A DNA stretch of 51,218 nt, taken from positions 1 through 51,218 of the forward strand of contig CACWIN010000016.1 of NCBI GenBank assembly GCA_902760965.1. Direction: 5' to 3'. The translations under genes were made by a program, and so were the position numbers. This document shows, in pieces, positions 16,950 through 31,507 of this stretch. Each line of letters starts with the position of its first letter. Position 1 is the first letter of the stretch. Origin of the DNA: an uncultured Bacteroidales bacterium. Lineage in GTDB: Bacteria; Bacteroidota; Bacteroidia; Bacteroidales; Bacteroidaceae. The notes under the pieces were generated by a model. It saw only the letters and a program-made list of their open reading frames with translations. It had not been told where the DNA came from and made no database searches.

Positions 16950-17900
16950 ATGAAGTTTTTGACAAATGAGAAACTGGTCATCTCTGGCGCACTTTCATCA
17001 AACATCTGCCTCTATGATGTTTATCTTCCCGGTCTGGAAGGTGTAGTTGAGGAACTCCGTCACTGCTCTTTCCCCGGTGTGAACATCACCTTTACCGACA
17101 AGGTTGAGGAGGCTTTCAAGGATGCCAAGTACATGGTTTCATCAGGTGGCGCACCCCGTAAGGCCGGTATGACCCGCGAGGATCTGCTGGTTGGCAACGC
17201 CAAGATAGCCGAGCAGCTGGGTAAGGACATCAAGACTTACTGCCCTGACCTTAAGCACTGCGTAATCATCTTTAACCCGGCCGATATCACCGGTCTGGTA
17301 ACTCTGGTTTACTCAGGTCTCAAACCTTCACAGATAACCACTCTTGCTGCTCTTGACTCAACCCGTCTTCAGAGCGCCCTGGCCAAGCACTTCGGCATTG
17401 CCCAGGACAAGGTTACCACAGCCCGCACATACGGCGGCCACGGTGAGCAGATGGCAGTATTTGCATCAACCGCCAAGGTTGACGGCAAGCCTCTGACCGA
17501 TATCATCGGCACACCCGCTCTCACAAACGAGCAGTGGGCACAGATGAAACAGGATGTCATCAAGGGAGGTGCCAAGATTATAGAACTCCGCGGACGTTCA
17601 TCATTCCAGAGCCCCTCATTCGTATCAATCGAGATGATAGGCGCTGCCATGGGCGGTGAAAAGTTTGAGTGGCCTGCTGGTTGCTACGTAAACAACTCAC
17701 AGTTCCAGAACGTAATGATGGCTATGCCTTCAACAATTGACGCTACCGGCGTTCACTACACCGATGTTAAGGGAACCGCTACTGAGATGGCTGACATTGA
17801 GGCCAGCTACAAGCATCTGCAGGCTATGCGCGACGAGGTTATCTCACTTGGCGTACTGCCCGCAGTAAGCGAGTGGAAGAAATACAACCCCAACCTCTGA
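16950..17900 (+). CDS. mdh: Malate dehydrogenase, apparently lacking the N-terminal glycine-rich loop
   Basis: NAD-dependent malate/oxaloacetate enzyme of the Bacteroidetes lactate/malate family. It matches the family from MKFLTNEKLV onwards, with substrate residues in GGAPRKAGMTREDL, the catalytic region FNPADITG, and the His motif TYGGHGEQMAV, ending AVSEWKKYNPNL. Odd point: after residue 10 it reads VISGALSSNICLYD, whereas relatives as I recall them carry a GAxGMIGSNM-type loop and helix of about 17 more residues before NICLYD. The protein is 316 aa, about 17 short. The reading frame is intact. Such a loss would remove the dinucleotide-binding Gly motif, so activity is doubtful, or the assembly lost bases here. 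A terminator follows. Confidence 0.85.
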   Translation: MKFLTNEKLVISGALSSNICLYDVYLPGLEGVVEELRHCSFPGVNITFTDKVEEAFKDAKYMVSSGGAPRKAGMTREDLLVGNAKIAEQLGKDIKTYCPDLKHCVIIFNPADITGLVTLVYSGLKPSQITTLAALDSTRLQSALAKHFGIAQDKVTTARTYGGHGEQMAVFASTAKVDGKPLTDIIGTPALTNEQWAQMKQDVIKGGAKIIELRGRSSFQSPSFVSIEMIGAAMGGEKFEWPAGCYVNNSQFQNVMMAMPSTIDATGVHYTDVKGTATEMADIEASYKHLQAMRDEVISLGVLPAVSEWKKYNPNL

Positions 17901-17919: not shown

Positions 17920-17958
17920 ACGGGAGCGTGCGGTTACTCTGCACGCTCCCGTTGTTAT
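17920..17958 (+). terminator. Terminator after mdh
   Basis: Perfect 12-base-pair stem (ACGGGAGCGTGC with GCACGCTCCCGT), 9-base loop, then TGTTATTT. The tail is not a pure T-run, but the stem is very stable. Confidence 0.85.
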
Positions 17959-18037: not shown

Positions 18038-18045
18038 TAGTTTTG
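18038..18045 (+). promoter_or_regulatory. -7 box upstream of the HTCS cluster
   Basis: TAGTTTTG matches TAnnTTTG, 21 bases before the first HTCS start. No clear TTTG is seen at -33. Confidence 0.5.
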
Positions 18046-18066: not shown

Positions 18067-19551
18067 ATGAAACCCTTCAGGTTATCCTGTTTTTTTTCTG
18101 TTTTATTCCTGATATCCAACATCCCTTTCGGCCCAGCTTTCTCAAAAACCGGGGAACAAGCCGAAGGAGTTATTCTTACACAACCTGTAAACCGCTTTAC
18201 GATTGAAAAGGACAATCAGCCCTTTACCGATGATTTTATCTTTTCGGACAGTCTGGGAAATATCCCGCTGGAACCCGGACACTATACGCTCAAATCATTT
18301 GACACTCCGGGCAACAGGGTATCGGGCAAAAAAATCCTGGAGTTTGACATTACGGAATCCATATGGCAGACTCTTCTTGGAAAGGCAATCCTGATTACAG
18401 GCCTCTTAATATTGCTGTCCCTTGCGGTCGTCTGCATAATACTGGTCATGACAAGACGCAAGGAAAGAAAGGACAGCAAAACGCTTTTGGACAGGAATGA
18501 AAAGGTCATAACCGACCAGGGCAATCTGCTGCATGACCTTAAAACGCCTGTTTCACTAATTTACAATCCCATTAAGGATATACTGGACCGGAAATCGCTT
18601 CCAAAACAAGAATCGGACATTCTTGAAAACGTTCTTAAACAGGCCCAGAAAATTGCCGACAGTCTGTTGGCGGTTTCACCGCTTTCAGGCCATTCGGAAA
18701 CCTTGACATCAAGCCCTGAAATACTGGCCGAAGATGTTGAAGAAGAGTCCTCAAAACCCCTTAAACCCTTCAGTACGGCCAACGCATCGATCCTGTTTGT
18801 CGATGATGATACTGATCTTCTGGATTATATCCTGACGGATTACAAGGACCTGTTCAGCAACATCTATACCGCAAATAACGGTTATCAGGCATTGGAACTT
18901 GCCCGTGACAAGATGCCTGATGTGATAATCTGTGACATAATGATGCCCGAAATGAACGGATTCGACTTATGCCGTACCATAAAATCGGATCTTGAACTTA
19001 GTCATATCCCCGTCATCCTGCTTACTTCACGCAGCAACCTGCAGAATCAGGAAACCGGTTACAAGATGGGAGCCGATGCTTTCGTTGCAAAGCCTTTTGA
19101 CTCCAAGACTATGTACAAGATGATATCAAACCTGCTCAAGAACCGTTGGGACCTTAAAAAACAGTATGCCGATTCGGCTTTCACAACCCTTACCAAAGAG
19201 CAGACATACAGCCTTGCCGATGAGCAGTTTATCCTTAAGCTCAATAAACTCATCTCGGAGAATCTGTCCAATACGGACCTGGATTCTTCATTCCTTGCCA
19301 AGAATCTGGATATTACCCGTACCGCCCTGTTCAATAAGATGAGCAATCTTTTGGGAACATCGACCAAACGGTACATCCGCAAGATCAGGATTGAATATGC
19401 CAAGAACCTGCTGGCAAATTCGGACAAATCAATAGGCGAGATTGCCGTTGTTACCGGTTTTTCGTTAAGCCATTATTTCAGTACCACTTTCAAGCAGGAA
19501 ACCGGAATGACTCCAAGGCAATACAAAGAAAAGAACAAAACAAGACCCTAA
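18067..19551 (+). CDS. Decapitated HTCS: Y_Y_Y remnant, TM, His helix pair, receiver, AraC; no sensor propeller, no ATPase
   Basis: Regulator derived from a hybrid two-component system. The 494 residues, in order: signal peptide (1-26), about 70 periplasmic residues that resemble a lone Y_Y_Y fold (EPGHYTLKSFD), membrane helix (107-128), DHp helix pair with His156 in LLHDLKTPVSLIYNP, a 35-residue linker rich in Ser/Glu/Pro, receiver (about 240-355) with D246/D247, phosphoacceptor D290, T320 and K342, and an AraC domain (about 385-490; GFSLSHYFSTTFKQETGMTP). The propeller (some 650 residues in its neighbours) and the entire HATPase domain (N, G1 and G2 boxes) are missing, with no frameshift. 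It cannot phosphorylate itself; a partner kinase is needed. The next gene starts 15 bases later. Function is inferred. Confidence 0.88.
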   Translation: MKPFRLSCFFSVLFLISNIPFGPAFSKTGEQAEGVILTQPVNRFTIEKDNQPFTDDFIFSDSLGNIPLEPGHYTLKSFDTPGNRVSGKKILEFDITESIWQTLLGKAILITGLLILLSLAVVCIILVMTRRKERKDSKTLLDRNEKVITDQGNLLHDLKTPVSLIYNPIKDILDRKSLPKQESDILENVLKQAQKIADSLLAVSPLSGHSETLTSSPEILAEDVEEESSKPLKPFSTANASILFVDDDTDLLDYILTDYKDLFSNIYTANNGYQALELARDKMPDVIICDIMMPEMNGFDLCRTIKSDLELSHIPVILLTSRSNLQNQETGYKMGADAFVAKPFDSKTMYKMISNLLKNRWDLKKQYADSAFTTLTKEQTYSLADEQFILKLNKLISENLSNTDLDSSFLAKNLDITRTALFNKMSNLLGTSTKRYIRKIRIEYAKNLLANSDKSIGEIAVVTGFSLSHYFSTTFKQETGMTPRQYKEKNKTRP

Positions 19552-19566
19552 ACAGGATTACAACAT

Positions 19567-22500
19567 ATGCGTAGAAAGATCCTTTCCACTCTGTCATTAT
19601 TGATATCGGCATGTTTGTGGGCTGCAAACAGCCTGTCCGTAATACAAACCACCATTGGAAGCGGAATAGAGACCCAGTCCCTGAATGTCATCGCCAAAGA
19701 CCAACTTGGCCGGCTCTGGATTGGCTCTAACGTGGGCGTATCGGTCATATCGAACGGAACCGTGACCAATATCAGGGAGGTGGAATCGGAGGGAGGTTCG
19801 GTCATGCTGGGAAACATAAGCAGCATTGCCTGTACACAAAGTGCCCTGATATCTTCGCAAGACAGGATCCTTCATTATGAATTGGGCTGCGACTCGGCCG
19901 CCACCCTTAAATACAACGGACAAATACTTCATACCGAGGACTTTCTGGTTGAGGGAAACAATGTGACCTTTTTTGACAAGGATTACGGTTCTCTGTTCTC
20001 ATACAATATGGAAAACGGCATTTGCCGGCTTGTAGCTTCGTTCAAGAGCGACTCGGAGTTCTCCTTTTCCAAAATAATGCGTTCTGAATCCGACAGCCTG
20101 ACAATATATCTGGCCGATGACATGCTTGGATTGTACAGTTACAACAGGGATAACGGTATAATACAGCGGGTTCCGGGAACAGACCGGCCCATAATTGCAA
20201 AGGCATCGGCCATTGACAAAAGCGGAATGATATGGCTTTCCATACCGAACGGAGGAATTAAGGGATATTATATAAACAGCGGTTACGAAAACGTGGCCAA
20301 TTACAATACCCAAAACTGCAACCTTCCGTCCGATAATATCAGTCTTGTTTCGCCGTTAAACAACGGAAACCTTCTGCTTTGTCATCCTGATGCCGGAATG
20401 TGCAGGCTGCAAAGGACCGATATTGCCAATAACAGGATAACGGTAAGGAATATAAATGACCTGAATGATGTTACCAGCATCATGGTCAGTTACGACAGTC
20501 ACGAAACGTTGTTCGCCACCAGGGAACATGGCCTTATCTCTATAAAGGAGTCATTCATGTGGCAGATAGGCCATTTGACGGAGAAATCAAACGGCGTAAT
20601 AAACTATGAGAACTATTTATCCGTATTTGAAGAACCCCAGGGAACCATTCTTGTAGGAACAAGCGGAAACGGCATAAAAAGAATAGACGTTGACCGGCAC
20701 ATTGAGACCGTCTTTCCGGACGCACAGAAAGCCGTTGTGAGTTCCATGTGCAGGTTTGATGACAGGCAGGTACTAATGTTTGACAAAAGCGGTCAGGTCC
20801 TGCTGTTTGACAGACATACGGGGAAAACCGCAAAGTTGTCCAGACATCCCATATCGGACCTGATTGACAAAGTGAATTCCAGGAATGTCCGCTTTGTAAA
20901 TACATCCGAGGGGGATATCATGATATTCAATGCCGACGGACATCACTACATTTACAGGGTTGACCGGAACCTGATCCAGGAAATAAGGATTGATTACGAT
21001 AATGGCATTAACCTGCAGCAGGTTGAGAATATATGCGTTTCGCCATATGCCGTATATGTTACCACCCACGGATCGATCATTGAGATCAACACCGCTTCGC
21101 TCCAGACAAAGAGGGTTTATTACAACAATGTCCGGACTATTCACAACATTACCTCACTGGCCGCCGATTCAAACGGCAACCTCTATTTTACCGAACCTCA
21201 AGGGCTGCACCGTTATGACCCCAGGTCAAACAACGACGACCTGATTGTGAGCACATGGGGAAACGGCCGTTTTCTGAATGTAGCCGTTGACAAGAATGAC
21301 AGGGTCTGGTTCTCTACCACCAGCGAATTCATTCAGATGTATGATTATGCCAAGAAAGAAACCTTGGTCTATACTGTACAGGACGGAGTATCAAAGTCAC
21401 ATTTCCTGACCCATTTTTCACTGTGTACCGCCTCCGGGACAATCCTGTTTCCAAATGCTACCGGAATGCTGAGCATTGATACCCGCAGCATGCTTTCTAA
21501 GGACGACCAACCGCAACCTATTACCTGTCTTTCGGCTTATACGGACCGTAACAGGATTACCAAAGCCGAACTGGACAACTCGCTGATACACCCCTTCAAG
21601 CTTTCGCCGTCATTCAGGGAACTCCATCTGGAATTCTCTGCCAACTCTTTCAACCCCACATATCCTCATCAGTTCATCTTTACCATATACAGGGATGACA
21701 CTCCCGTAATGTCAATCAACTCCTCCGGCACTACTCTCAGCATTCCCCGTATGGATCATGGCAAATATACATTGGAGGTACAGCAGATTTACAGGAACGG
21801 ATTGAGTGAAAGCCGTAAAATAATCTCATACGTAATACGTAAACCCTTCCTGAAAAGCATACCCGGTCTGATCCTGTCACTTGCCCTGGTGGTATTGTTC
21901 GGTTACTCCATAGCCAGGTTCTCAAGCACAATCGAAAAAAACAGGATGGAAAAAGCAATGGCTGAGCAGGATATTAAGAACAGGGAAGACAAGATTGCGT
22001 TCCTGTCAAACATAGCTCATGAGCTCAGGACTCCCCTTTCGCTTATCTATAATCCTGTAAAGGACTTTCTTCAGGAAAAATCGGTTGACGGCATTGACTA
22101 TGAACGTATGGAAAGAATCTTTAACCAGGTCAACAAAATGACCGTAATGGTAAATATGATACTTGACAGCAGCCGTGCCGATGTAAACAAGGCCGATATC
22201 CTGATCGAAGAGGTTGATTTGAACGAATGGCTCAATTATCTGCTTGAGGATTACCGTATAGACTGCTACGGTAAGGGATTCAAACTTAAATTCATAGTGG
22301 ACAAGTCAATAGGCAAGGTTTCCATTGACAAACGCATAATAGAGACCGGACTGTCAAATATGGTCAACAACGCCATCAAATACAGCCCCAGCGGTACCAC
22401 CATAACAGTCAGCACCGCAAAGATAGGTCAGGACACCATAAGGGTATCGGTCAAGGACCAGGGTCGTGGATTTACCTGCAACTCCGAGGACCTGTTTAAA

Positions 22501-23550
22501 CGTTATTACCGTGAAAACGTGGACAACAGCATACCGGGATACGGACTTGGACTGCCCTACGCCCGCCTTCAGCTAAGCCTTATAGGTGGAAACATGTCGG
22601 CTGTAAACAATACTGACGGAGTTGGTTCCACCTTCTTTATGGATTTCCCGCAGGTTGTTGGCGAAAACGGCAAAACCATTGTTAAGGAATCTCCCACCCA
22701 GACACCGCAAACAAAAGCCACTGCTACAACCGGGCCCAAGGAACCGGAATCTCCTGCCGAAACCGAAGAGGCCATGGCACAGGATTTTGACACCAGGAAT
22801 ATGGCCATTCTTCTGGTATGTGCCGATAACAAGGAACTGGAAAACCTGCTTAAAGAGTTTAACGGTATGTTCCGGCTCATTATGACAGCACACAACGGAA
22901 AAGAGGCAGTTTCAATTCTGGAGCGCATGACCCTGGATATGGTCATAACCGACGCCGATATGCCAGAGATGGACGGATTTGAGTTGTGCCGCCATATTAA
23001 GAGTACATTCCAGATAAGCCATATACCGGTATTGCTACTGACCCGCCGCAGTGATTCCAGGAACAGGAAACTTGGATATAAGACGGGTGCCGATGCATTC
23101 CTGCCAAAACCGTATGACATTAAACAGTTGCTTACCATAATCAGGAGTCAGCTTGGCGGACGGTTTGAGATTAAACGGCAATTTAATTACGGATTCTTTA
23201 CAATGATGAATCCGGACCAGACATTCAGCGTTACCGATGAACAGTTCATTGAGAACCTGAATCAGGTAATAAAGAGCAATCTGTCCGATCCCGGTTTCAG
23301 TGACGAAACCATTCACAAACAGCTTGGCCTGTCAAGAACCCTTCTGCTTAAAAAAATGGAAGGTCTGCTTGGCACCAATATTGCAGGCTATCTGATAAGG
23401 ATTAGGAACGGATTCGTAAAGGATAAACTGTTGAACACCGACGATGAACTTGAGACTATTGCCAAGGATTCCGGCTTTGAAAGCGTGGACCAGATGAATC
23501 TTTCATTCAGGAAAGAGACGGGTAAAACAGTCTACTCATTCAGGGAATAA
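19567..23550 (+). CDS. Hybrid two-component regulator (HTCS) with intact kinase but substituted receiver pocket
   Basis: One-polypeptide sensor kinase/regulator (1327 aa). Signal peptide (1-20), periplasmic Reg_prop propeller blades (for example DQLGRLWIGSNVGVSVI, DKSGMIWLSIPNGG, DSNGNLYFTEPQGL), Y_Y_Y domain (about 685-760), membrane helix (about 765-785), DHp with His818 in AHELRTPLSLIYNP, HATPase with MVNNAIKY (about 934), DQGRGF (about 964) and GYGLGL (about 991), a Thr/Pro/Glu linker, receiver (about 1079-1195), and AraC-like end. In the receiver the two acidic residues are Cys1085-Ala1086, while D1129, the Thr and the Lys stay. The second HTH is degraded (DQMNLSFRKETGKTVYSFRE in place of a YFSxxFKxETGxxPxxY pattern). 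Probably a kinase with weakened output. Confidence 0.92.
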   Translation: MRRKILSTLSLLISACLWAANSLSVIQTTIGSGIETQSLNVIAKDQLGRLWIGSNVGVSVISNGTVTNIREVESEGGSVMLGNISSIACTQSALISSQDRILHYELGCDSAATLKYNGQILHTEDFLVEGNNVTFFDKDYGSLFSYNMENGICRLVASFKSDSEFSFSKIMRSESDSLTIYLADDMLGLYSYNRDNGIIQRVPGTDRPIIAKASAIDKSGMIWLSIPNGGIKGYYINSGYENVANYNTQNCNLPSDNISLVSPLNNGNLLLCHPDAGMCRLQRTDIANNRITVRNINDLNDVTSIMVSYDSHETLFATREHGLISIKESFMWQIGHLTEKSNGVINYENYLSVFEEPQGTILVGTSGNGIKRIDVDRHIETVFPDAQKAVVSSMCRFDDRQVLMFDKSGQVLLFDRHTGKTAKLSRHPISDLIDKVNSRNVRFVNTSEGDIMIFNADGHHYIYRVDRNLIQEIRIDYDNGINLQQVENICVSPYAVYVTTHGSIIEINTASLQTKRVYYNNVRTIHNITSLAADSNGNLYFTEPQGLHRYDPRSNNDDLIVSTWGNGRFLNVAVDKNDRVWFSTTSEFIQMYDYAKKETLVYTVQDGVSKSHFLTHFSLCTASGTILFPNATGMLSIDTRSMLSKDDQPQPITCLSAYTDRNRITKAELDNSLIHPFKLSPSFRELHLEFSANSFNPTYPHQFIFTIYRDDTPVMSINSSGTTLSIPRMDHGKYTLEVQQIYRNGLSESRKIISYVIRKPFLKSIPGLILSLALVVLFGYSIARFSSTIEKNRMEKAMAEQDIKNREDKIAFLSNIAHELRTPLSLIYNPVKDFLQEKSVDGIDYERMERIFNQVNKMTVMVNMILDSSRADVNKADILIEEVDLNEWLNYLLEDYRIDCYGKGFKLKFIVDKSIGKVSIDKRIIETGLSNMVNNAIKYSPSGTTITVSTAKIGQDTIRVSVKDQGRGFTCNSEDLFKRYYRENVDNSIPGYGLGLPYARLQLSLIGGNMSAVNNTDGVGSTFFMDFPQVVGENGKTIVKESPTQTPQTKATATTGPKEPESPAETEEAMAQDFDTRNMAILLVCADNKELENLLKEFNGMFRLIMTAHNGKEAVSILERMTLDMVITDADMPEMDGFELCRHIKSTFQISHIPVLLLTRRSDSRNRKLGYKTGADAFLPKPYDIKQLLTIIRSQLGGRFEIKRQFNYGFFTMMNPDQTFSVTDEQFIENLNQVIKSNLSDPGFSDETIHKQLGLSRTLLLKKMEGLLGTNIAGYLIRIRNGFVKDKLLNTDDELETIAKDSGFESVDQMNLSFRKETGKTVYSFRE

Positions 23551-23612: not shown

Positions 23613-26600
23613 ATGAAAAGAGCTCTGGTCTTACTGGCTTTGATGGGATTTGTATCAACAATCCGGGCCAACTTTGTTCAACAATACCAGGTTGGAGTGG
23701 AAAAGGGTCTGAGTTGCAATGCCGTCAGGTCGTTTACTAAAGATATATATGGCAGAATGTGGGTTGGTACCGTTAACGGAGCCAATCTTATATCGAACGG
23801 TTCTGTCAGGCAATACCGCTATTTTACCGTTAACGGCAACGATATTGTAACCGGCAACACCATGTCAATAGGTTGCTACAAGCATGCCATAATTGCCACC
23901 AACAGCCATATTCTGGACTTTGATCCCGAAAATGATTCCACCAGGATAGTTACATACAACGGAAATACCATAAGGACCGAATACATAATGATGCAGGGCG
24001 ACACGGCAATCTTTTACAATGCACCCCTAAGCTCACTGATGAGATACATCACATTGACCGGTCAAACGGAGAAGATTGCAGAATTCCCCGCCGAAAACCA
24101 GTTGCATTTTTCAAAACTGCTTCAGAGCCAGAACAACAGGAACCAGATCATTCTGGCCGAAAACGACCGTGGAATCTATACTTTTGACCTAAAGACAGGA
24201 ACTCTGACACACATTGGGGAGATAGGCGGAAACATCAATTCCAGGGCTTCGTTCATAGATTCAAAAGACATTCTTTGGATAGCTACAACCGGAAAGGGCG
24301 TATCGGGTTACTATATAGGGTCCGGATTTGACCTTATTTCCAAGTTCGACACCGGAAACTCCGGTATACTGAGTGACAACATAAGCTGCATGGAAGAGAT
24401 GCCGGACGGAAACCTGCTGATATGTTCCGACAATCACCGTTTGATTATCCTTAACCGCAAGAACGGAACCGTGGCAGACGCTTCTTTCGGTTATGACATT
24501 CCGCTTCATGTTACATGCGCCATGGTAAACCGTCAGGATAATGAGATAATCCTTGGTACACTTCATAAAGGAATAGTATCACTTAAATCATCCTTTTTCC
24601 ATTCCCTCAGCAACTATCAGGACGAGAACAATCAGGATTCCGAGGTTGCTACCATTCCCGTATCGGCGTTCCAGGACAATGACGGAACCATATGGTTTGG
24701 AACCGGAGGATTCGGTGTAGAGAGTTTTAACGAGAAAACCGGTAAATACACCCTGTTCAATTCCACCCAAGGAATGAGGATTTTTTCCATATGCAACTTT
24801 GACCGGGACAATCTACTTATTACAGACCGCATATCCGGACTGTTCCTGTTCAACAAAAAGACCGGAACATTAAAGCCCACACAGTTCCTGGCCGATGCCG
24901 GCATTATGATTTCGGCAGCCAGACTGACACACCTCAAGACCATATCCACCCCCGATGGTGACATAATGTTGTTCAACTGCAGCGGAAGACATCTCATTTA
25001 CAGGCAAAAGACCGGACAGGTAAACGAAATAATTCTGCAACAGATGAACGGGCAGGAAAACAACGGTATTGTCGAAGATGTAGTAGTCCGTCCGTCACAT
25101 GCTACCATTGCATGCAACGGATGTATATATCAGATTGATTACAGGACTCTTCTGGCCAGACTCATATATCAGGATAACGGCGATGGACACCATAATATCT
25201 CACACGTTGCCGAAGACTCCCGGGGAACGATATGGGCCTGCTCCCCTGATGAACTGATCAGTTTTGATCCCAGAGAGAACAAGATATCAAATGTGCTTGG
25301 CAAACAGGAGAACGAGGTTTTCCTGTCAATGAACATAGACAATCAGGACCAACTGTGGATTACCACCGACAAGTCCATGATCATAATGTATGACACAAAA
25401 GATGCGGTGCGGAAAGAACCATACTATTATTCCGGATGGAGTTCCGGTACCATCCTGAATTTCCTTACCGATTTCTCCATGGTTTCAAAAGACGGTTTCG
25501 TGTACTTTCCTCATACATCGGGCATACTTGTTATTGACCCTAATGACGTCAATTTAAAGAAAAGCAGCGGCCAGCTTGACATAATGATCACCAAGACCGT
25601 ATTGGACGGAAAAACCATTGATAACTCCCAGACCACGAACAAGGATAAAGTTTTGACCTTACCCAACCGATTCTCGCTTCTTGATGTAAATGTTGCGGTA
25701 AATCAGTTCAACCCTACCCGAATGGTTCCCCTTAAGTATACATTGCTTAAGAAAGGACGCCCGGACCCCGTCCTGGAAAGAGTTACTGCAAGTACAGGTA
25801 TATCCATTCCAAAATCAACATACGGGTCATTTACGTTGCAGATCAGTCAACGTACCGTTCAGGGGTGGACCGAACCTCAGGATATCCTCTCTTTCAATGT
25901 AGCCAAGCCGTTCATAATGACTATCCCCGCATATCTGCTCATTATCGCCATAATAATATCCATAAGCGTCACTATCTCAAAAGTAGGCATCAGCCTTAAA
26001 CAGATAGATATGGACCGTACCATAAATGCACAGCAAAACAAATACAAGGACGAAAAGATATCCCTTTTGTCAAATCTGGCCCACGAACTGAGAACTCCCC
26101 TATCCCTTATTTACAACCCGGTAAAGGATATGCTGGAGGAAAACACAGTCAAGGGTGCCGATTATGACCGGCTCCTTAAGGTTTCCAACCAAATCCGGAA
26201 AATGACCGAGATGGTCAACCTGATTCTGGACAAGGGAACTAGGGACATTACCAGGAATGACCTTGCCATTGAACCAGTACGTCTAAACTTATGGCTTGAA
26301 AATATAATCCGGGAGTTCATGCCCGAAACAAAAGACAAAGGCCTTAAGCTTGAGTTCATGCCATCGGACAAACTGGAAACGGTTTTCCTGGACCGAAAAG
26401 TAGTTGAGATTGCCGTTACCAACATTATCACCAATGCTATAAAGTTCAGCGATACCGGTACTATTACAATATCTACAGGTCTCCAGGACAACAATATCAG
26501 CATATCGGTTCATGACGAAGGCCGCGGATTCTCCTGCAAACCCGAGGAGCTGTTCAAGCGTTACAACACCGAACACGAGTTTGTTCCGGGATATGGTATG

Positions 26601-27593
26601 GGCTTGTCATATTCCCGATTCCTGATTGAACTGTTGGAGGGTACCATAACCGCATCGAGGAATGACGGTCCGGGTTCCACATTCACCATAGAGATTCCCG
26701 CCGATTTGGCCGAAAAGAATCTGCGCAAGACCTCAAGGCCTCATGTACCGCTGACCGAAGATAACGAAACCGTTAATGACATCCAGGTTGACCAGACCGT
26801 GCCCGATGAGTTTGATTTTGACACAAAGAGCATGACCCTTCTGATTGTGGATGACCAGGACGATATCCTGCAATTCATAAAAAATGAATATGCTCCCCTG
26901 TTCAAGACCATATATACAGCTCATGACGGAAAAGAGGGTCTTGACATTATAAGACAGCATATACCTAACGTTGTGGTAAGCGACATCATGATGCCCAGGA
27001 TGAACGGATTTGAGCTGTGCAGGACTATCAAGACAGACCTGGAACTGAGCAGTATTCCTGTAATCCTGCTTACGTCGCGCAGCGATCCCAAGAACCAGGA
27101 TATGGGTTACAAGATGGGAGCCGATTCTTTCCTGCCCAAGCCGTTTGATTCCAAACTGCTGTACAAGATTATACGCAGCCAGTTAAAGAACCGCTTTGAC
27201 ATAAAACGCCAGTACGCATCATCATTCATAACCGCAATATCCGAGGAGCAGACATTCAGCGCGGCCGATGAACAGTTTGTACTTAAACTGAACCGCTTTA
27301 TAAAAGACAACCTTGCCAACTCCATGCTTGGAGTTGACATGATTGTGGAACATATGGGTGTGTCACGTACCACTCTGTTCAACAAGATGAACGCTCTTGT
27401 AGGCGTATCAACCAACAAGTATATCCGTAGGATCAGGATTGAGGTTGCCAAGGAGATGCTGGCCAAGACAACAAAACCGGTAGGGACAATTGCCGATGAA
27501 ACCGGCTTTTCGGAAAGCCAGTATTTCAGCACTGTCTTTAAGCAGGAGACCGGAATGACTCCCTCACAATACAAGGAATCCCTTGAGCAGTAA
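23613..27593 (+). CDS. Hybrid two-component regulator (HTCS), complete
   Basis: HTCS of 1326 aa with all parts: signal peptide (1-20), Reg_prop propeller (DIYGRMWVGTVNGANLI, DSKDILWIATTGKGVSGY, DNDGTIWFGTGGFGVESF, DSRGTIWACSPDELISFD), Y_Y_Y (about 690-765), membrane helix (about 770-790), DHp with His824 in AHELRTPLSLIYNP, HATPase boxes TNAIKFSD, DEGRGF and GYGMGL, receiver with D1080/D1081, phosphoacceptor D1124 and SFLPKPFD, and AraC end GFSESQYFSTVFKQETGMTP. It is a paralogue of the two genes before it, 62 bases downstream; the gap holds no clear promoter. HTCS proteins usually sense glycan fragments and control a nearby polysaccharide locus, but none is present here. Confidence 0.93.
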   Translation: MKRALVLLALMGFVSTIRANFVQQYQVGVEKGLSCNAVRSFTKDIYGRMWVGTVNGANLISNGSVRQYRYFTVNGNDIVTGNTMSIGCYKHAIIATNSHILDFDPENDSTRIVTYNGNTIRTEYIMMQGDTAIFYNAPLSSLMRYITLTGQTEKIAEFPAENQLHFSKLLQSQNNRNQIILAENDRGIYTFDLKTGTLTHIGEIGGNINSRASFIDSKDILWIATTGKGVSGYYIGSGFDLISKFDTGNSGILSDNISCMEEMPDGNLLICSDNHRLIILNRKNGTVADASFGYDIPLHVTCAMVNRQDNEIILGTLHKGIVSLKSSFFHSLSNYQDENNQDSEVATIPVSAFQDNDGTIWFGTGGFGVESFNEKTGKYTLFNSTQGMRIFSICNFDRDNLLITDRISGLFLFNKKTGTLKPTQFLADAGIMISAARLTHLKTISTPDGDIMLFNCSGRHLIYRQKTGQVNEIILQQMNGQENNGIVEDVVVRPSHATIACNGCIYQIDYRTLLARLIYQDNGDGHHNISHVAEDSRGTIWACSPDELISFDPRENKISNVLGKQENEVFLSMNIDNQDQLWITTDKSMIIMYDTKDAVRKEPYYYSGWSSGTILNFLTDFSMVSKDGFVYFPHTSGILVIDPNDVNLKKSSGQLDIMITKTVLDGKTIDNSQTTNKDKVLTLPNRFSLLDVNVAVNQFNPTRMVPLKYTLLKKGRPDPVLERVTASTGISIPKSTYGSFTLQISQRTVQGWTEPQDILSFNVAKPFIMTIPAYLLIIAIIISISVTISKVGISLKQIDMDRTINAQQNKYKDEKISLLSNLAHELRTPLSLIYNPVKDMLEENTVKGADYDRLLKVSNQIRKMTEMVNLILDKGTRDITRNDLAIEPVRLNLWLENIIREFMPETKDKGLKLEFMPSDKLETVFLDRKVVEIAVTNIITNAIKFSDTGTITISTGLQDNNISISVHDEGRGFSCKPEELFKRYNTEHEFVPGYGMGLSYSRFLIELLEGTITASRNDGPGSTFTIEIPADLAEKNLRKTSRPHVPLTEDNETVNDIQVDQTVPDEFDFDTKSMTLLIVDDQDDILQFIKNEYAPLFKTIYTAHDGKEGLDIIRQHIPNVVVSDIMMPRMNGFELCRTIKTDLELSSIPVILLTSRSDPKNQDMGYKMGADSFLPKPFDSKLLYKIIRSQLKNRFDIKRQYASSFITAISEEQTFSAADEQFVLKLNRFIKDNLANSMLGVDMIVEHMGVSRTTLFNKMNALVGVSTNKYIRRIRIEVAKEMLAKTTKPVGTIADETGFSESQYFSTVFKQETGMTPSQYKESLEQ

Positions 27594-27601
27594 AAAGGGA
27601 T

Positions 27602-28714
27602 TCAACAAGGCTTGCAAACCGAACCTGGGCACTGCTTGACCAATCCTTTCATCTCAAGCGAAAACAGGACCGACATGAGTTTTGGGAAAGGAATGTTCAG
27701 TTCGGTCATAAGAGTACCTATCAAAACACCTTGTGCCTTTAAACGTATCCTGTCCCATACTTTTGACTCATCGTCAGTAAGGTCCGGGAACAGTTCTTTT
27801 TGTACCGGTTCGCTGTTACGTGCCCGTTCATTCCAGTTCATGGCATTGGCAAAATCCAAAGCAGAGCAAATAAGACCTGCACGGTTGTCTCTTATCAGTT
27901 CATTGCATCCAACCGAATATGGGTCCCCTACACTGCCCGGAAAGGCAAAACACTCACGGTTATATGTGCCTGCAATCTCAGCAGTAACCAGAGAGCCGCT
28001 TTTTGCTGCGCTCTCCACTACCACCACCGCATCGGCCAGTCCGGCAATAATACGGTTGCGTTTTACAAAGTTATGAGCCAATGGGGTGGTACGTGATGTG
28101 AATTCGGTGACAAGTCCTCCGTTGGCAAGCATGGATTTAGCCACGCTGCGGTGCGACGACGGATATATCATGTCCAAGCCGTGAGCCAGCACGGCAATGG
28201 TAGGAAAACCATATTCAAGTGCAGCCTTGTGCGACTCAATGTCTATTCCATAAGCCAGGCCGCTTATGACAGTTACGTCGGGGCACAGCTCATGCAACTC
28301 CTTTATAAAGGTATTACACATTCTTCGGCCATAATCGGTGGCCTTACGTGTTCCTACTATTGCAACACTCCTTGTTGCATTGTAATTGACGTTACCCAGC
28401 GAAAACAGGATAAGGGGAGCATCCTTACAGTCAAGCAAACGGGCAGGATAATCTTCATGGGCGGGTGTGATACATCTGATACCGTGTTTTTCAATAAAAT
28501 CAAGTTCTTCACGGATAAAAGAATCATACCTGAAACCGCACAATGCATCCACCAGATGCGTGTCGATTCCAGGTATGATTTCTTTAAGATGATCGCGGCT
28601 CCTTAAGACTTCCTGCGCGCTGCCTAACTGGTCATACAGGTATTTGGCTCCTATATTTCCAAGTCCTTCAATCCTGTTTAAGGTGAGCAGCGCCGTCAGT
28701 TCATCTTCCGGCAT
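27602..28714 (-). CDS. dprA: DNA-processing protein DprA
   Basis: Binds incoming single-stranded DNA and loads RecA in transformation. The 370 residues have a helix-hairpin-helix-like start (IEGLGNIGAKYLYDQLG), the Rossmann DprA core (VAIVGTRKATDYGRRM near 118, ISGLAYGIDIESHKAAL near 150, AHGLDMIYPSSHR near 178, TPLAHNFVKRNRIIAGLADA near 215, KSGSLVTAEIA near 240), and a C-terminal winged helix. Length is normal. It converges on the last HTCS gene, 8 bases apart, and follows the TPR lipoprotein by 27 bases. Confidence 0.93.
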   Translation of the reverse strand: MPEDELTALLTLNRIEGLGNIGAKYLYDQLGSAQEVLRSRDHLKEIIPGIDTHLVDALCGFRYDSFIREELDFIEKHGIRCITPAHEDYPARLLDCKDAPLILFSLGNVNYNATRSVAIVGTRKATDYGRRMCNTFIKELHELCPDVTVISGLAYGIDIESHKAALEYGFPTIAVLAHGLDMIYPSSHRSVAKSMLANGGLVTEFTSRTTPLAHNFVKRNRIIAGLADAVVVVESAAKSGSLVTAEIAGTYNRECFAFPGSVGDPYSVGCNELIRDNRAGLICSALDFANAMNWNERARNSEPVQKELFPDLTDDESKVWDRIRLKAQGVLIGTLMTELNIPFPKLMSVLFSLEMKGLVKQCPGSVCKPC

Positions 28715-30512: not shown

Positions 30513-30580
30513 GCCCTGAACCCTATATTTTTAATATAGAGATGGATTTTTTTGTCAAATAAATGCAAAAAACGCGGTTT

Positions 30581-31507
30581 TTAAAGGTTGCGGGGATGAT
30601 GGGACACTATTTCCTCGCGCAGACGACTTCGGTCAATGTGGGTGTAAATCTCGGTAGTGGCTATCTTTTCATGCCCAAGCATGCACTGTATGGCACGCAG
30701 GTTGGCTCCGCCCTCCAGCAGATGTGTGGCAAAGGAATGACGGAACGTATGGGGACTTACGGTCTTGGTTATTCCGGCCTTTGCGGTAAGTTCCTTGACT
30801 ATGTCAAACACCATTATCCTGGAAATGGGACGGCCGCGTCTTTTGCTCAGGAATACAAAACTATCGGCACCGGGCTTGATCTCAATATGACAACGGTCCT
30901 GCAGGTAATTCTGTATTTCATGGATGGCTCTTCCCGAAACAGGGACAAGACGCTGTTTGCTGCCCTTTCCGGTAACCCTTATGAACCCTTCGTCCAGAAA
31001 AAGGTCCTCCATCTTGAGCGAACACAGTTCCGATACACGCAATCCGCAACTGTACATTGTCTCAATCATAGCCCTGTTGCGGTGGCCTTCAGGCTGCCTC
31101 AAGTCTATCTGACTTATTATAGAGTCTATCTCCGATACCGTCAGGACATCAGGGAGATGCCGCCCTATCTTGGGGGCTTCGAGCAGTTCACTGGGGTCAT
31201 CGGGCCTGAAACCGTCCAGGCAAAGGAACCTGAAAAAAGACCTGATGCCCGAAATGATGCGGGCATGCGTGCGAGGCGAGATACCCAGGTCGGCAACCGA
31301 AGCCGAAAACTCGTGAAGGTCCTGAAGCGTTACATCCAGAATGTCAATATTGCAGTCGTCAAAATAACGCAACAGTTTTGTAACGTCATCAACGTATGCA
31401 TCCAGCGTATTTGCAGAAAGTGATTTTTCCAGCAGCAGATACTGACGGAAACGAGTAAGCATATCTTTATGTGGCGTTTGGGCGTTATGTTGCAGGTCTG
31501 TTTTCAT
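30581..31507 (-). CDS. xerD: Tyrosine recombinase XerD
   Basis: Partner of XerC in chromosome dimer resolution. The 308 residues from MKTDLQHNAQ have an N-terminal SAM-like domain (FRQYLLLEKSLSANTLDAY) and a catalytic domain with Arg in YSCGLRVSELCSL, His253/Arg256 in HTFRHSF, His279 in MLGHEK and Tyr288 in TTEIYTH. A start 48 bases further up (31555) is possible, but it would put the -7 box at 31552-31560 inside the gene. It reads away from the O-methyltransferase, sharing a divergent promoter region. Confidence 0.93.
   Translation of the reverse strand: MKTDLQHNAQTPHKDMLTRFRQYLLLEKSLSANTLDAYVDDVTKLLRYFDDCNIDILDVTLQDLHEFSASVADLGISPRTHARIISGIRSFFRFLCLDGFRPDDPSELLEAPKIGRHLPDVLTVSEIDSIISQIDLRQPEGHRNRAMIETMYSCGLRVSELCSLKMEDLFLDEGFIRVTGKGSKQRLVPVSGRAIHEIQNYLQDRCHIEIKPGADSFVFLSKRRGRPISRIMVFDIVKELTAKAGITKTVSPHTFRHSFATHLLEGGANLRAIQCMLGHEKIATTEIYTHIDRSRLREEIVSHHPRNL

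Follow-up and report, generated by a model that had tools for sequence, protein, structure and literature searches.

Three tandem HTCS paralogues with differing losses of kinase and output functions in Candidatus Colenecus

Three HTCS-related genes in one interval

We analyzed a 51,218-nucleotide stretch of DNA (the window; contig CACWIN010000016.1 of assembly GCA_902760965.1) from an uncultured Bacteroidales bacterium of the genus Candidatus Colenecus (Bacteroidaceae), whose genome is a 2.3-Mb draft of 93 contigs. The subject is a group of genes related to hybrid two-component systems (HTCSs), a major regulator class in glycan utilization by gut Bacteroides; the consulted excerpt of PMC11253607 describes them as single-chain proteins that signal within a histidine kinase homodimer and are insulated by tethering. 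A preliminary description of the window had reported a 494-aa gene and a 1327-aa gene separated by 15 bases and had regarded them as a split HTCS. Both open reading frames (ORFs) and their spacing were confirmed. The interval between mdh and dprA, however, carries three tandem genes on the plus strand, not two: S (494 aa, 18067–19551), D (1327 aa, 19567–23550) and F (1326 aa, 23613–27593), with 62 bases between D and F.

For comparison, we searched 37 genomes of the genus, counting that of the window (20 of them twice), and read the surroundings of mdh and/or dprA in each. Related records bear names such as Candidatus Colenecus caballi or uncultured Bacteroidaceae, with rumen and horse as sources. 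The training set of the motif profiles comprised 20 intact HTCSs, ten F proteins among them; the bit scores therefore favour F, while the residue letters are unaffected.

S is an output protein. Based on its ORF, Pfam, motif reading and an AlphaFold model, it consists of an N-terminal hydrophobic segment, the remnant of a Y_Y_Y-like region, one transmembrane (TM) helix, a hairpin of the dimerization and histidine phosphotransfer (DHp) type, and intact receiver (REC) and AraC domains. Pfam detected Response_reg and HTH_18/HTH_AraC, left HisKA below threshold (14.4 bits, cut-off 26.9) and found neither propeller nor HATPase, so that the sensor and kinase portion expected of an HTCS is missing from the protein of the window. 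Motif reading places His156 at 18532–18534. The receiver (18784–19131) has intact acids, with Asp290 at 18934–18936, and the recognition helices of the AraC DNA-binding domain (DBD; 19246–19533) are near-identical to those of F in the motif alignment, which makes common targets of the two proteins probable.

The receiver–AraC output of an HTCS is present in all seven S proteins found, with the acid pair (D-D in the window), the phosphoacceptor Asp, Thr and Lys intact in each. The HATPase domain is absent in the window, and the corresponding region of the six other proteins lacks the N, G1 and G2 residues. At the DHp His position, readable in six of the seven, only the window's protein has His, while four have Asn and one has Tyr. 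Identity among S proteins was 0.47 in the DHp (15 pairs) and 0.38 in the pseudo-HATPase (15 pairs, from the six proteins having one). Judged by these motifs, S is predicted to be unable to phosphorylate itself; it lacks a defining feature of an HTCS and is best called HTCS-derived. Its AlphaFold model (mean pLDDT 71, pTM 0.41) has helices at residues 99–174 and 180–202 that form a two-helix DHp hairpin, followed by REC and AraC; this fold is compatible with pairing of S via the hairpin.

D is a kinase protein with a propeller, an intact kinase, a dead receiver and an altered AraC end. Pfam found Reg_prop, HisKA and HATPase_c, Response_reg only from profile position 14 onward, and HTH_18 at 39 bits, compared with 66 in S and 71 in F. 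The DHp (21967–22164) contains His818 (22018–22020), and the HATPase domain (22291–22653) keeps the N box Asn, DQGRG in the G1 box and GYGLGL in the G2 box. In the pseudo-receiver (22807–23151), Cys1085-Ala1086 (22819–22824) stands in place of the acid pair, with Asp1129, Thr and Lys retained, and the AraC end is altered in its second helix-turn-helix. For both S and D, Pfam and the motifs agree with the domain losses and retentions that had been read from the sequence before.

All 17 full-length D orthologues, each an open frame of 1270–1332 aa, keep the phosphoacceptor His and the N, G1 and G2 boxes, and with them the kinase portion of an HTCS. The canonical acid pair of a phosphorylatable receiver occurs in none of them, its place being taken by CA, SA, CM, GT, SD, GG or SS; the phospho-Asp position holds Asp in 13, Glu in two and Asn in two, and the Lys is kept in 16. 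Relatives thus do not carry the receiver acids, whereas an artefact in the window would have left them in place there. Sequencing error or chance is ruled out as its cause by the 17 orthologues and by the HTCSs found singly, within 6–10 kb stretches read, elsewhere in the genus, of which 24/25 are intact at all scored motifs (the lone other one, L026, is the same gene as L057 of genome G022). D, too, lacks a defining feature and is best called HTCS-derived. A reduced form, D′, occurs in four genomes. In G004, G010 and G014 it is a TM–DHp–HATPase protein of 286–325 aa without REC or AraC; in G005 it is divided over two frames close to an undetermined base, of which one covers part of the propeller and the other stops after the HATPase. 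In a search with the D kinase, 14/301 family genomes matched at 1e-48, all of them from this genus; as at most eight candidates were scored per genome, relatives of D beyond the genus may exist.

F is an HTCS. In the window, propeller, HisKA, HATPase, REC and AraC lie on one chain with every scored motif intact; HisKA scored 23.3 bits, just below the Pfam cut-off of 26.9, and His824 is present. F is the most conserved output of the locus, and its phosphoacceptor His and receiver residues are intact in 17/17 proteins. Its receiver reads SSIP for SHIP, a motif of the REC–DBD lock in the consulted part of PMC11253607. The SHIP His is lost in all 17 F proteins and kept in S (7/7), D (17/17) and the 24/24 readable HTCSs elsewhere in the genus; it is also lost in three of seven readable HTCSs outside the genus (ten listed), so that its loss as such is not rare. 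By the argument set out in that excerpt, F should be less inhibited when unphosphorylated.

Gene content across the genus and crossed conservation

The order S-D-F was found in three of the 37 genomes (G000, G001, G020), D-F without S in 14, and S-D′ without F in four (G004, G005, G010, G014). Overall, D or D′ is present at the locus in 21 genomes, with an intact REC–AraC partner beside it in 21/21. S is always accompanied by D or D′ (7/7). By longest ORF, the gaps between them are 15, 3, −4, −4, −1 and −4 bases, with an overlap of 106 bases in G014, so that S overlaps or lies within 15 bases of its neighbour in all seven genomes. One genome (G011) has a complete HTCS adjoining dprA and none adjoining mdh. 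All three genes are gone in G003, G007, G027 and G028 and, save for an 80-aa piece of F, in G019 (5/37); S, D and D′ are thus absent from G007, the sister of the window's genome. Eight of the remaining genomes have no such gene adjoining mdh, the contig of G015 ending about 2 kb past mdh. In G019, the 80-aa ORF (L105, 9092–9334) lies between mdh and dprA and matches the AraC end of F at 85% identity; it is either a remnant of the lost locus or a free-standing DNA-binding domain.

An output tree built from 61 rows within the limits set for score and coverage recovered clades of S (seven proteins, support 98/96), D (17, 100/100) and F (17, 99/93); beside F fall the single HTCSs from G008 and G013 (89/81). 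D′ grouped with D at 92/91 in a separate tree, from which 8/67 rows were left out (HTCSs of G015, hybrid kinases of G011, and locus L115). A tree of neighbouring housekeeping proteins, made by a quick method and including four rows with less than half of their positions filled, places the S-D-F genomes at separate points at the base of a clade of 26 genomes. G008, G013 and G011 fall outside this clade, and S-D-F is therefore most simply ancestral within it. From there, the gene contents are most simply explained by one loss of S toward the D-F group, one loss of F in the S-D′ group, and losses of all three genes in G007, in G003/G027/G028 and in G019.

This distribution bears on the earlier question of whether the losses in S and D always occur together. 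The receiver loss of D is not tied to S, as S is missing from 14 of the 17 genomes in which D is full-length, all 14 carrying D-F, and a strict S–D pairing is ruled out by the same count. The absence of the short gene from close relatives, which had been named as evidence against the pair, is indeed seen in part, yet it is explained by a single loss of an S that was most simply ancestral, with F remaining.

The conservation of D and F is crossed. Averaged over the 136 pairs of 17 genomes, DHp identity was 0.996 in D vs 0.836 in F, D being higher in 136/136 pairs, whereas D was lower in 136/136 pairs for REC (0.611 vs 0.962) and for AraC (0.555 vs 0.922). When G020 was left out (120 pairs), DHp identity was 0.998 in D and 0.889 in F, and HATPase identity 0.836 and 0.761, with D higher in 115/120. 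HTCSs from elsewhere in nine of the 17 genomes served as a yardstick. In this nine-genome set, D, F and the other HTCSs showed identities of 0.997, 0.890 and 0.878 in the DHp, of 0.630, 0.968 and 0.914 in REC, and of 0.572, 0.954 and 0.953 in AraC; the HATPase identity of the other HTCSs was 0.841. By this comparison, the DHp of D is unusually frozen and its HATPase ordinary, and the F receiver is somewhat above usual conservation. Receiver dN/dS was 0.08–0.21 in D vs at most 0.02 in F in seven close pairs with finite dS, many dS values being saturated. Together with the yardstick, this indicates that the output part of D is strongly relaxed, yet not neutral.

Possible working of the trio and rival explanations

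Based on these comparisons, we consider it fairly probable that the three paralogues share the work of one receptor as a distributed HTCS whose kinase, D, would phosphorylate F, S or both, either in trans or within heterodimers. As S appears unable to phosphorylate itself and D lacks a usable receiver, the simplest joint reading is a transfer from His818 of D to the receiver of F and/or S. D would be the sensor kinase: its propeller would bind a ligand, its HATPase would phosphorylate His818, and the phosphoryl group, which its own receiver would be unable to accept, would pass to a partner receiver. In most species this acceptor would be F; species that have lost F would use S (Asp290), and the species of the window would use both. 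The partners, probably made together from one operon, would probably meet via their DHp bundles, as membrane heterodimers or as close neighbours, and F and S would then bind DNA through their similar helices.

The Asn or Tyr in place of His in five S proteins implies that a route via the His of S itself is not general, and makes His818 of D the likelier donor. With S missing from 14 of the 17 genomes with full-length D and F present in all 17, the standing partner of D seems to be F, and S an extra output. Tethering allows the kinase–receiver pairing of HTCSs to be promiscuous according to the excerpt of PMC11253607, and this relaxed specificity would ease phosphotransfer between paralogues. 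Catalytic and output functions do lie on separate, co-encoded proteins, most clearly in G004, G010 and G014, as in split kinases; complex formation and trans-phosphorylation of that type are what we infer for the trio.

The proposal of an output half and a kinase half on separate, apparently co-transcribed genes has gained from the fact that S is kinase-dead and output-intact in 7/7 proteins and D kinase-intact and receiver-dead in 17/17, and the idea of a split pair from the four genomes reduced to S and a kinase-only D′. It has to be widened to a trio, as F directly downstream had been omitted. The DHp block TPxSLIYNPxKD, which had been taken to favour S–D pairing, is present in F too and is thus not specific.

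Several observations weigh against a division of labour among the three proteins. The outgroup genomes G008 and G013 have one complete HTCS at the locus, and all kinase motifs are found outright in 15/17 F proteins (that of G002 is partly masked by Ns, that of G020 lacks the HATPase), so F may not need D. Propeller identity is lower in D than in F (0.575 vs 0.637; 130/136 pairs), so D is not singled out as the sensor, and no propeller at all remains at the locus in G004, G010 and G014. The dead receiver of D is under some purifying selection, which means a role that this account does not name. Few tree events appear to underlie the pattern: the D receiver, the S kinase, S and F would each have been lost once. 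The 136 pairs are non-independent, at most eight being disjoint; as all pairs agree for DHp, REC and AraC, any eight disjoint pairs agree too. Finally, these are draft assemblies, and given an in-frame gap in the mdh of the window, the locus may contain small deletions that arose in assembly.

In G020, F lacks the HATPase, D has lost half of the AraC domain and S lacks a complete HATPase, so D is the only protein of this locus with all kinase motifs, in line with a division of labour. This genome also bears on the possibility, which we regard as unlikely, that D is a negative partner of F, like RetS for GacS, and blocks F in a heterodimer or drains its phosphoryl groups while its own receiver is free to decay. 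A full kinase core under strong constraint next to a receiver-like domain without the acid pair is what such a partner might look like, F seems complete unaided, and RetS–GacS heterodimers are described (PMC12189002, consulted in excerpt). However, S and F both lack a complete HATPase in G020, and in the four S-D′ genomes D′ is the only kinase beside an S without a working kinase, so that a purely inhibitory D would leave S without a phosphodonor at the locus.

It is likewise doubtful that S is governed from outside the locus, by acetyl phosphate or another kinase, or is active unphosphorylated, its position beside D being simply inherited. The SHIP His kept in S means that DNA binding should respond to phosphorylation from any donor (motif as in the excerpt of PMC11253607), and both its DHp and its pseudo-HATPase are poorly conserved; but the constant company of D or D′ at overlapping or nearly abutting frames, and the absence of both S and D from G007, speak for a local link. 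We consider it very improbable that D and S are duplicates in decay and that F alone is functional. The output is lost from D and the sensor and kinase from S, and S is absent from most genomes with full-length D, as decay would predict; yet the D DHp (99.6% identical over 17 genomes) exceeds that of F (83.6%, or 88.9% without G020) and of other HTCSs (87.8% in the nine-genome set), the frame of D is open in 17/17 genomes, S keeps all receiver residues in 7/7, and the four S-D′ genomes have no F at all.

Related clusters, known systems and neighbouring features

Of nine loci outside the genus, taken from the matches listed in a family-wide survey of tandem HTCSs, one (L115) has two adjacent HTCSs. 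Both are intact at the scored positions bar one G2 glycine (Ser) in the longer protein, and adjacency alone thus does not imply splitting. Within the genus, other tandem clusters with a related division were seen in G024 (L052, L053) and in G022 (L101, L102, cut by contig ends). L053 has a kinase with a broken receiver and a dead kinase with an intact receiver, both without an AraC end, and an output protein with intact REC and AraC, no recognisable DHp and most HATPase residues remaining. In L052, one kinase, encoded on the opposite strand, has a broken receiver and lacks the AraC end; beside it are a protein whose kinase and receiver are intact but whose AraC end is missing, and an output like that of L053. 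The clusters of G022 and G024 have complementary lesions, kinases without the AraC end and outputs without the phosphoacceptor His, and suggest a trend. A tentative extension, which we hold with some doubt, is that HTCSs of this genus are becoming multi-protein units, with a frozen hub kinase D that might serve two outputs with the same target sequence and different SHIP locks (kept in S, lost in F) and give a graded or two-step response; the G022 and G024 clusters would be further cases. Apart from these clusters, L057 (G022) and L054 (G024, outside the 25 controls) each hold an HTCS whose kinase is dead while its receiver acids are intact and an AraC domain is present, with no other HTCS in the stretch read.

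The HTCSs of Bacteroides (BT4124, BT1754) carry propeller, TM, HisKA, HATPase, REC and AraC on the same chain, which F fits fully, whereas at the S/D/F locus one paralogue has lost the kinase and another the output. In the GacS/RetS/LadS system of Pseudomonas, the transcriptional output is separate, RetS is inhibitory, and the kinases are not tandem paralogues of one receptor. A likeness to it lies in hybrid kinases that heterodimerise or trans-phosphorylate (PMC12189002, excerpt). CheA3/CheA4 of Rhodobacter sphaeroides are complementary proteins as well, one with the catalytic and one with the phosphorylated domain (PMC3591291, in the part consulted); there the split divides the kinase itself, with CheY6 as a separate regulator, whereas in S/D/F it runs between kinase and receiver–AraC, in membrane HTCS paralogues. 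In FasB/FasC of group A Streptococcus, two sensor kinase-like proteins, one a pseudokinase, are proposed to form a heterodimer (PMC12675982, excerpt), but the phosphoryl acceptor is a separate regulator, FasA. No split or distributed HTCS was found in the open-access literature as far as titles and abstract openings show. The S/D/F set looks like a split kinase, that is, a known principle in a new place, between kinase and tethered transcription factor.

If this is true, the insulation of HTCSs can be undone and rebuilt, and the locus offers a natural test of receiver choice by HTCS kinases and a ready-made split receptor. It would also be a warning that not every HTCS gene is an independent sensor. 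The DHp of D is frozen and that of tethered HTCSs looser, a contrast that allows a direct test of whether tethering relaxes specificity.

On the S side, the locus is flanked by mdh (16950–17900) and on the F side by dprA (27602–28714, minus strand). Pattern matching placed a terminator-like hairpin between mdh and S (17920–17952, plus strand), a pattern that occurs at 11 sites in the region vs 12.7 expected in shuffles. Read by eye, TAGTTTTG (18038–18045, plus strand), 21 bases 5′ of the S ATG, resembles the Bacteroides −7 element (consensus TAnnTTTG). Upstream of D, TAGATTTG or TAGTTTTG was likewise seen by eye in all five D-F genomes inspected. Pfam revealed no SusC/SusD or glycoside hydrolase in ten other window proteins, a subset of those encoded there, and no regulatory targets of the locus were found, no target-site search having been made.

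An in-frame segment of 16 residues, which in relatives contains the glycine-rich NAD-binding motif, is missing from the mdh of the window, while the rest is 99–100% identical to the nearest ones; the segment was either truly lost or dropped in assembly. Two kinds of mdh occur in the genus, with 87–100% and 62–64% identity to that of the window, G001 and G020 having the distant kind. The split between the two kinds disagrees with the tree of neighbouring genes, which suggests that mdh has been replaced in place within the genus. Further downstream, at 30563–31423, the window encodes a 286-aa protein without NCBIfam or Pfam match at 0.001, which is found piecemeal beside a TPR gene in many relatives.

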